DNA of 37,052 nt, taken from contig QHYN01000095.1 of NCBI GenBank assembly GCA_003224145.1, positions 1 through 37,052 of the forward strand. The letters run 5' to 3'. Shown here in pieces: positions 8,875 through 21,935 of this stretch. A program made the translations under genes and the position numbers. Positions within the stretch are counted from its first letter, which is position 1; every line of letters starts with the position of its first letter. Under the pieces are notes generated by a model. The model searched no databases, was not told where the DNA came from, and was given only the letters and a program-made list of their open reading frames with translations. The DNA is from Acidobacteriota bacterium (GTDB lineage: Bacteria > Acidobacteriota > Terriglobia > Acidiferrales > UBA7541).

Positions 8875-8910
8875 ACGAGAAGGAGGACGAGTTCCAGAAT
8901 GGGAAGAATG

Positions 8911-8961
8911 CCCCCCCCACCCCGGCAGTTTTCGTAAGAGTGGAAAACAAAGGACTTAGGA
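8911..8961. repeat. C-rich dispersed intergenic unit (diverged copy)
   Basis: A C-run, CCCCGGCA, TTTTCGTAAGAGTGG, AAAACAAAGGACTTAG. The same order recurs with changes at 9013-9060 and 10927-10975 inside the two long direct repeats. It looks like a tandemly duplicated, diverging unit. I have the impression that such units are common between acidobacterial genes. The 8875-9224 stretch otherwise has no credible gene. Confidence 0.55.
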
Positions 8962-8970
8962 CATACGGAA

Positions 8971-9224
8971 CTTGGAAGAGTATACGGAACTCTGGAGGAC
9001 GAAGAGAGGAGGGCACACCCCCGGCATTTTGTATGAATGTAAAAACAAAGGAGTTACAGAATTTGCAATTCGTAAGTGATTGAAAAGAAAAGAAGGGCAA
9101 AATGGGTGATGAGTGGGTGAGCAGGGGAGGGAGTGGTGGATGCACCGGTACTGGGGGAATGAAGAGGACAGGGCGGCCAGGGCGCATAAGCGAGGCGGCA
9201 AGGCAGCGTCGGCCTATCGTACAA
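8971..9224. repeat. Long direct repeat, left copy (254 bp)
   Basis: Runs from CTTGGAAGAGTATACGG to CCTATCGTACAA and matches 10885-11139 base for base except for one extra G in a G-run of the right copy (CCCCCGGC here, CCCCCGGGC there). Its last bases, TACAA, merge into the Tyr-Lys codons of the truncated transposase. No coding capacity is convincing on either strand. Confidence 0.95.
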
Positions 9225-9942
9225 GAACGGAATCAGTTCCTATGAAATTGCACGCGCTCTCGGAATCACTCAGAAATCCGCGTGGTTTATGATGCACCGC
9301 GTTCGTCTCGCCTTGCATGAGAAGCAGTTCGTAAGACTCGGCGGCAGTGGCAAGGAAGTTGAGGTTGACGAGACTTTCATCGGCGGTGCCGCTCGTTTCA
9401 TGCACGCTGACAAGCGCCGCGAGAAAATCATCGACCGTGGCGTAAAGGGAAAAGCCGCTGTGATGGGGATTCTGGAACGTGGCGGCAAGGTTTGCGCTAA
9501 CGTCATTCCCACTCGCCGGAAACACCATTTGCAAGCGCAGATTCGCGCCCATGTCAAAGCAGAGAGCGCGATCTACACCGATGCCCTCATGTCCTATCAT
9601 GGATTGAACAATCAAGACTTTATTCACCAAACGATTGACCATGCCGAACGGTACGTTGACGGGCAGGTTCACACGAACGGACTGGAAAATTTCTGGAGTC
9701 TGCTCAAGCGCGGATTGAAGGGAACATATGTCAACGTCGAGCCGTTCCACCTGTTCCGTTATTTGGATGAACAAGTGTTCCGGTACAACAACCGCGCCAA
9801 GAAAGACCACTTCATTGGCGACGGTGACCGTTTTCAAATGGCTATGCGTCATATCGCTGGTCGTCGTATCACCTATCAAGAACTGACTGGCAAAGGCACC
9901 GATTCGCTGCACCACGAAGAGGCAGGGACGAGGCCATCGTAA
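9225..9942 (+). pseudogene. IS1595/ISXO2-like transposase, N-terminus missing
   Basis: The catalytic half of a DDE transposase of the IS1595 group. Reading starts at the repeat junction with KNGISSYEIARALGITQKSAW, the helix-turn-helix region. It continues through VDETFIGG (first Asp), IYTDALMSYHGL (second Asp), and HTNGLENFWSLLKRGLKGTY (the His/Asn/Glu catalytic segment typical of ISXO2), ending at 9942. The N-terminal zinc-ribbon part, roughly 80-100 residues in intact relatives, is absent: upstream of 9225 the frame enters the 254-bp repeat and meets TAA at 9187. The ATG at 9289 is internal to the domain and not a natural start. The protein is therefore unlikely to transpose anything by itself. 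Confidence 0.88.
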
Positions 9943-10076
9943 AGCGGCCTAATCCTTGCCTTTTTGATGTTTCTGCAAATCAGATTTTGGCGCGCGAAAA
10001 AGAGCTTTCATTGTGTTCTCAAAAGCCTTTCTCGCTTCACGCCCTTTTCTATACACATGTTTCTTTGTGCGTTTTT

Positions 10077-10832
10077 TCAATTTAGAAATTCCTTGATGAA
10101 CTGTTCGAGGATGTCTGTATGGTCTTTTAAGAACTGCAATAATTTGTTGATTTCTGGACTCGCCTCACTCCAAATCATAGATAGACCAGTTGCAGAAAAG
10201 AATCTGGAGGCGTAGGACGGCTCCATATTCTCCCTAATGTAACGTAGGGATTTCATATTCCATTGTGCCACCGCACCGGAGCAGGAGAACTTCGCATCCT
10301 GGGGACTCAAGCAACTCATCATAAGATTCCTGCCCTCAGTTATTAGGTAACCAAGTTGGGTGCGAATAGCCGCTCGTCTTTTTGTCTCTTCGGCATCCTT
10401 TCCTACAGGCACGTAAACAGTTTTTGGCGGAGTAACCTTAGGAGGAGCTTTCTTGAGGTCGTTTATCTCGACTTCTAATCTCTGAATGTATTGATCTCTA
10501 GTTTCCAATCCTTGTTTGAGCGAGTTTTTTTCGTTCACTACACCTTGCCAACGTTTAACGACATTCTGATGGTCATCGTATATAGTTTTGACGATGCTTA
10601 CGCCCACCAAGACCGCATAGCCGATACATGCTGACACAAATCCGTCTTTGATGATTTGTCCATATTCCTTGCGAATCCACGCAATTAGCATGTGGGGCTG
10701 TTCTTTCTTCCACCTGCGGACGACGCCAATTGCGAATAGCAGGATGGTGAATGCGACGGCAGCCCAATTGCCAGAGAGGAGAGCTGGCGCGGTGATGAAG
10801 GCACGCCAGAAGAGATGCCAAGCGTGGAGCAT
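10077..10832 (-). CDS. Unrecognised membrane protein with coiled coil
   Basis: A 251-residue protein I do not recognise. Two hydrophobic segments are likely membrane helices: about residues 12-38 (through FTILLFAIGVV) and 63-84 (FVSACIGYAVLVGVSIV). A charged helix at about 86-128 (KRWQGVVNEKNSLKQGLE, YIQRLEVEINDLKK) looks like a coiled coil. It is followed by a Pro-rich linker (APPKVTPPKTVYVPVG) and a soluble C-terminal domain of about 100 residues with two Cys (CLSPQDAKFSC). It lies inside the direct repeats, convergent with the transposase remnant, and is more AT-rich than its neighbours, suggesting transfer. No strong ribosome binding site is seen. It could be element cargo or a stranded host gene. 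Confidence 0.6.
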   Translation of the reverse strand: MLHAWHLFWRAFITAPALLSGNWAAVAFTILLFAIGVVRRWKKEQPHMLIAWIRKEYGQIIKDGFVSACIGYAVLVGVSIVKTIYDDHQNVVKRWQGVVNEKNSLKQGLETRDQYIQRLEVEINDLKKAPPKVTPPKTVYVPVGKDAEETKRRAAIRTQLGYLITEGRNLMMSCLSPQDAKFSCSGAVAQWNMKSLRYIRENMEPSYASRFFSATGLSMIWSEASPEINKLLQFLKDHTDILEQFIKEFLN

Positions 10833-10884
10833 AAGACTCGAATTATGCCATTCAGACGCTTTGTGTGTCTAGTATGTTGTTGCT

Positions 10885-11139
10885 CTTGGAAGAGTATACG
10901 GAACTCTGGAGGACGAAGAGAGGAGGGCACACCCCCGGGCATTTTGTATGAATGTAAAAACAAAGGAGTTACAGAATTTGCAATTCGTAAGTGATTGAAA
11001 AGAAAAGAAGGGCAAAATGGGTGATGAGTGGGTGAGCAGGGGAGGGAGTGGTGGATGCACCGGTACTGGGGGAATGAAGAGGACAGGGCGGCCAGGGCGC
11101 ATAAGCGAGGCGGCAAGGCAGCGTCGGCCTATCGTACAA
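10885..11139. repeat. Long direct repeat, right copy (255 bp)
   Basis: Second copy of the repeat at 8971-9224, same orientation, one inserted G. It ends CGTACAA and then continues into unrelated sequence (CACCTACTATAAC), whereas the left copy continues into the transposase. The sequence left of this copy (TAGTATGTTGTTG) differs from that left of the first, so the boundaries are sharp on both sides. Confidence 0.95.
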
Positions 11140-11201
11140 CACCTACTATAACATATTCTGGCAGTTTGTCAAGGAATAACTAGTGAGTGCGTCAAAAGAG
11201 A

Positions 11202-11361
11202 GGCTAACCCGTTGTAAAATGAGGAGGTTGGGAACCTAGTGAGCTGGGGACGGGGGCCGTTCAAACGCGGGGAATCCGAAAGCTGAGGTAAGGGAGCGCC
11301 CCCGTGAAAGAAACAAGTGGTTCTCGGGGTAGGTAGGGTCCGATTCACGGAGGCGCTAGCC
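11202..11361 (+). ncRNA. Candidate structured RNA, about 160 nt
   Basis: Within the 367-base gene-free stretch 11140-11506, GGCTA (11202-11206) can pair with TAGCC (11357-11361). Inside, AGGTT/AACCT (11225-11237) forms a hairpin. ACGGGGGC (11250-11257) pairs perfectly with GCCCCCGT (11298-11305), enclosing three further short hairpins. Size, closing stem and a TTCACGGAG near the 3' side are loosely like 6S RNA, but I cannot identify it. Strand is a guess. The bases before and after hold no gene. Confidence 0.2.
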
Positions 11362-11506
11362 GTCCTTTAGTGCGAGCGATTCTGAAGGAATGCTGCGGCC
11401 GATTCAATCCGGCGTTTTCCCGTATCTTTGGTCAGGTATTCCCTCTAGAATCCCTCCGGCCTGCGGTAGTCGTATAATGAGAGAGGTTGAAAAAAGGAGA
11501 AGACTT

Positions 11507-11773
11507 GTGAGCGAGGAGAAAGTGCAAGACGCCGGACCAAAGGCTGACGCAAGGGGGAGCAAAGGAAAAGACGTGGCTGGACGCGCGAGAGAGGTGTGCT
11601 TGTGCGGGCACCGCGCCACCGTTCACGCGGCGTACCGGTATGCCTGCCAGGCCCCGGGCAACCGTAAAGGCTTCTGCCCGTGCATGCGGTTTGTGGCAAG
11701 AAATTCGCCGATCGGAAAACGCTTGCGGACAGCAGGGCAGACGAGCGAAAGCAGCAGCGGTAAGCCTGCCTGA
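11507..11773 (+). CDS. Small Cys/His protein, putative zinc-binding
   Basis: An 88-residue protein. The GTG at 11507 is chosen because GGAGA (11496-11500) lies seven bases upstream; an in-frame ATG at 11477 overlaps a TATAAT at 11473-11478 that is probably the promoter -10 box. The first 30 residues are charged and probably flexible. Then Cys31, Cys33, His35, His40, Cys47, Cys57 and Cys59 form CLCGHRATVH ... CQAP ... CPCMRF, a CxCGH-x4-H-x6-C-x9-CxC layout that could hold one or two metal ions. Short proteins with CxCGH...CxC motifs occur in several soil bacteria; their role is not known to me. It stands alone next to the repeat island. Confidence 0.6.
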   Translation: MSEEKVQDAGPKADARGSKGKDVAGRAREVCLCGHRATVHAAYRYACQAPGNRKGFCPCMRFVARNSPIGKRLRTAGQTSESSSGKPA

Positions 11774-21860: not shown

Positions 21861-21935
21861 GCCGGGGTAGCTCATTGGTAGAGCGCCGCCCTGAAAAGGC
21901 GGGCGTAGCCAGTTCGATTCTGGCCCCCGGCACCA
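21861..21935 (+). tRNA. tRNA-Phe (anticodon GAA)
   Basis: A 75-base tRNA with CCA encoded. Acceptor GCCGGGG pairs with CCCCGGC, the D stem is GCTC/GAGC, the anticodon stem CCGCC/GGCGG carries loop CTGAAAA (anticodon GAA), the variable loop has five bases, and the T stem GCCAG/CTGGC holds TTCGATT. All stems are fully paired. It has its own promoter and no obvious terminator. Confidence 0.97.

Follow-up and report, generated by a model that had tools for sequence, protein, structure and literature searches.

Known systems and the present locus

The IS1595 family comprises elements with ISXO2-like transposases, and the title of its description by Siguier et al. (2009) places it at the frontier between insertion sequences (IS) and transposons (PMC8101967, PMC5704250). 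A replicative, circle-forming route has been suggested for elements of this type (PMC5704250). For ISApl1 in the mcr-1 transposon, template switching at short matching sequences has been proposed as the way in which the IS is lost (PMC5821093), and ISs that target repetitive extragenic palindromes (REPs) are described in the IS3, IS110, IS4, IS256 and IS5 families (PMC1525189), IS1595 not being among these five.

The locus described here lies in a stretch of 37,052 nucleotides from an Acidobacteriota genome (contig QHYN01000095.1, assembly GCA_003224145.1), which was analysed as a whole and is called the window. It shares with the IS1595 family the DDE_Tnp_IS1595 domain, the terminal inverted repeats that in its relatives start with GG, and an 8-bp target duplication, but differs in lacking the left terminal repeat and the zinc ribbon, in place of which it carries a 246-bp copy of flanking DNA. 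It is a fairly ordinary IS1595 transposon remnant, to which the frequent landing of its relatives in a dispersed repeat of the same kind adds some interest. The features are as follows.

8885..8970, + strand: left part of a dispersed repeat family, contiguous with the left copy and absent before the right copy (blastn)
8971..9224, + strand: left duplicated copy, 254 bp, starting with the target duplication CTTGGAAG (8971-8978) and ending in unique sequence past the dispersed repeat
9225..9942, + strand: 5'-truncated IS1595-family transposase, DDE domain kept and zinc ribbon lost (PF12762 and alignment to intact relatives)
9949..10080, - strand: small ORF of 43 codons, whose TTG start overlaps the stop of the cargo gene; blastp matches to small ORFs inside the related elements L052, L168, L172, L188 and others
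10077..10832, - strand: cargo gene, 251 aa, with a predicted membrane segment and a coiled coil (by eye); no family match above the cut-off
10863..10884, - strand: right terminal inverted repeat, matching L052 (both ends), L053 and L067 with few mismatches
10885..11139, + strand: right duplicated copy, 255 bp, starting with the target duplication CTTGGAAG (10885-10892)

Repeat pair and dispersed repeat family

An earlier note on this DNA reported a pair of direct repeats that differ by one G over 254 bases, and the pair is real: the copies at 8971-9224 and 10885-11139 are distinguished only by one G in CCCCCGG(G), an identity that cannot be due to chance. The 1660 bases between them occur once in the 4.79-Mb assembly of 359 contigs (the note had called this interval unique), and the genome has no second copy of the island. 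Its reading of the pair as a recent duplication is also right, and so is the potential it saw for recombination between the repeats to excise a circle of 1.9 kb, which would restore an empty site.

The repeat itself belongs to a dispersed intergenic family. The search for further copies that the note had proposed places the 255-bp query at 36 sites in this genome; apart from the pair at 8971 and 10885, to which near-identity is therefore confined, the copies are shorter and have an identity of 74-95%. Of 35 other genomes of the genus, 16 contain weaker and shorter matches. The alignment of the other genomic copies by blastn is unbroken from about position 8885 through 8971, thus the left copy resembles an unoccupied repeat, while the right copy is cut at 10885 and has before it none of the family sequence found upstream of the left copy. 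No other copy matches roughly the final 35 bases of the duplication, so the right border was not set by exchange between dispersed copies.

These borders bear on whether a composite transposon, or gene conversion between dispersed copies, made the bracket. Membership of the bracketing repeat in a dispersed family speaks for such an origin, but the left border of the repeats is a transposon target duplication, the right border falls outside the dispersed repeat, where no further genomic copy matches, and all other copies are clearly diverged, which makes this origin highly improbable. The decayed composite mobile unit proposed in the note is rejected, since the bracketing repeats are intergenic target DNA without a transposase and not two IS copies.

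The family, to which window 8885-9190 belongs, has a core common to the genus. A G-rich intergenic stretch at 11180-11420, between the right repeat and a gene for a GH5 protein, has no Rfam match; the only Rfam match in the whole window is a tRNA at 21861.

Truncated transposase and transposon ends

The left repeat abuts IS1595 transposase codons at 9224/9225. The catalytic domain (Pfam PF12762, E 3.3e-38) is present in 9225-9942, and the N-terminal zinc ribbon, which is found in most IS1595 groups, is lost at the joint. That the repeat runs into the interior of the transposase, at the cost of the zinc ribbon, agrees with two intact relatives, L052 and L053, which retain it. These elements, from two genomes of the same genus, are 79% and 78% identical to the island at the DNA level; identity begins at 9222-9223 and extends beyond the transposase stop. 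Compared with them, about 332 bp are missing, which include the left terminal repeat and the zinc ribbon, and 246 bp of right-flank DNA occupy the place of the missing segment. A search for the missing left end and transposase N-terminus, the latter suggested by the note, found neither anywhere in the assembly. The island is a truncated remnant of an IS1595-family member and not a complete one, and as the left terminal repeat and zinc ribbon are absent this copy should not be autonomous. Among named genomes the best match to the transposase is in a Candidatus Acidiferrum genome (Acidobacteriota), and apparently the same element occurs in another genome of the genus, G033, which makes it probable that the window comes from that group or close to it.

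Terminal inverted repeats of the relatives start with GGCAACAA or GGTAACAA. In a search allowing up to 3 mismatches, 10863-10884 was the sole match in the genome and the reversed control gave none, so that a right terminal repeat is present and the left one is absent both from this locus and from the rest of the assembly. At its outermost base the right repeat departs from the consensus (T for C). Directly adjoining it is the 8-bp target duplication CTTGGAAG at 10885-10892, found again at 8971-8978 and forming the first 8 bases of both copies; the right repeat therefore begins exactly at the 8-mer equivalent to the target duplication of the relatives, while the left CTTGGAAG no longer touches a transposon end. 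Related elements were surveyed at 60 distinct sites where both ends are present, and at 52 of these the 8-bp target duplication is perfect; its consensus is palindromic and close to CTAATTAG. This proportion is somewhat favoured by the procedure, which paired the ends partly by the match of the 8-bp duplication, though it required terminal repeats on both sides. With a length of about 1.7-4.3 kb, the surveyed elements exceed what a transposase alone would take up.

The origin of the island as a transposon, its right end, its target duplication and the loss of its left end are established by these features. The note was correct on the recent duplication and the truncated IS1595 transposase, but missed the right terminal repeat, the target duplication, the cargo and the dispersed family. 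A terminal repeat with a target duplication discriminates an excisable island from a transposon scar, and the puzzling repeat pair is explained by a known kind of transposon.

Origin of the flank duplication

Ten unoccupied genomic copies of the repeat read uninterrupted through ACGGAACTTGGAAGAGTATACGG (up to 2 mismatches), like the left copy, hence the locus combines a left part that resembles an empty site with a left-truncated transposon. The structure is probably the outcome of an insertion into a dispersed repeat, followed by loss of the left end in a near-precise, aborted excision with copying of the flank. A transposon of about 2 kb with one cargo gene would have inserted into a copy of the dispersed repeat and duplicated 8 bp, CTTGGAAG. 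Copying of the left flank would then have leapt over the transposon at the 8-bp duplication by a forward template switch, which alone would amount to precise excision, and proceeded 246 bp into the right flank. A backward switch into the transposase gene at a 3-bp CAA match would have led to the right end of the transposon and the right flank being copied again, which would give the order left flank, empty-site-like repeat, 3' part of the transposon, repeat and right flank.

The order of events and the manner of copying are what we infer from this arrangement, template switching being the most likely mechanism. A tandem duplication followed by precise excision would give the same product, and the evidence does not separate the two. 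At the joint, CAA is shared between the repeat end TACAA and the transposase sequence, which is GCAAGAACGG or CCAAGAACGG in most examined relatives and GTAAGAACGG in L052; three shared bases at 9224/9225 are close to what chance gives (a few per cent). As in the loss of ISApl1 from the mcr-1 transposon (PMC5821093), an IS end would be lost through a replication template switch, but the reported outcome there is a deletion, whereas here a partial loss is accompanied by a flank duplication and a second, backward switch is needed. If the two-step copying is true, the locus represents a stage between transposons that are retained and those that are excised precisely, and can erase itself by recombination.

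The same joint could come from a local chimera of assembly or library, in which the metagenome contained an empty allele as well as one with the intact transposon, and the repeat of the former was joined to the transposon interior of the latter by a chimeric read or gap closing. The assembly has 95% completeness and 4% contamination in its 359 contigs, several copies of the repeat are no more than 200 bp away from a contig end, the joint shares 3 bp only, and since the 246-bp copy is close in size to the lost 332 bp, mate-pair distances would look plausible. On the other hand, the joint contains no Ns, the two repeat copies differ by one base, neither the left end of the element nor its transposase N-terminus is found elsewhere in the assembly, and 3 bp are too short an overlap for de Bruijn assemblers; on balance a chimera is unlikely, though it deserves more weight than the other alternatives. 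At a larger scale, the flanking genes, an MFS gene to the left and the GH5 gene to the right, share a contig and an orientation in about ten genomes of this genus, which indicates that the flanks belong together and argues against a gross misjoin. The misjoin suggested in the note is therefore disfavoured at the gene scale, and what is left of it is a possible local artefact at 9224/9225. Nine MFS-GH5 loci were fetched, eight with both genes and one (L122) with the MFS side only. In one genome (G032) the distance from the MFS gene to the sequence matching position 11595 is about 0.33 kb, versus 2.8 kb in the window. An orthologous empty site was not found at the sequence level in the fetched loci of the genus because the intergenic region is poorly conserved.

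Alternatively, the 3' part of the transposon and one repeat copy could have been closed into a circle at a site of microhomology, and homologous recombination inside the repeat, for which 254 bp are sufficient, could have returned this circle to the empty locus. The final structure would be identical, and for elements of the IS1595 type circular intermediates have been suggested (PMC5704250). However, this route takes a larger number of steps, a left transposon end would be absent from the circle, no replication gene was seen among the ORFs read or the Pfam matches, and the near-identity of the repeats requires an origin at the same locus. The integrated circular molecule of the note is thus formally possible, with the same product, but unnecessary, and we regard it as improbable.

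Target preference for the dispersed repeat

IS1595-type elements including L052, L056, L057, L059, L061, L127, L134 and L137 lie repeatedly at TTCGTAAG-like sites in a C-rich/AAAACAAAGG dispersed repeat. Because a long profile built on this repeat lacked the sensitivity to score target sites, short flank tests were used, in which only the 16 bp adjoining the target duplication were scored against the dispersed-repeat motif. At up to 4 mismatches the motif flanks 12 of the 60 sites versus 0.04% of positions drawn at random from the same loci, and at 6 mismatches 16 of 60 versus 1%; the motif set was partly picked after the flanks had been viewed, so the enrichment is an estimate, though a large one.

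Like REP-targeting ISs (PMC1525189), these elements prefer to land in an intergenic repeat that is dispersed over the genome. The target here differs in consisting of a C-rich part plus TTCGTAAG...AAAACAAAGG rather than an established palindrome, and only part of the sites, about 12-16 of 60, follow the preference. It may be, and we put this forward only tentatively, that IS1595 transposons of Acidobacteriota prefer a genus-wide dispersed repeat, and that aborted excision there leaves flank-duplicating scars which recombination between the two flank copies can return to a clean empty site. Such a repeat would be a target class that the survey (PMC1525189) does not give for this family, and the preference suggests that dispersed repeats are safe landing sites for this family, which is absent from the list of that survey.

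Cargo gene and small ORF

The "orphan" gene of the earlier note is present, but its identity is that of cargo of the truncated IS1595-family transposon. No convincing relatives of it were found in Pfam, PADLOC, PHROGs, IMG/VR, plasmids or 89 genomes of the same family-level group, and L052 and L053 have different ORFs at the cargo position. The 43-codon ORF, antisense to and downstream of the transposase, is conserved across several related elements; this small basic ORF beside IS1595 transposases is possibly an accessory gene of such elements.
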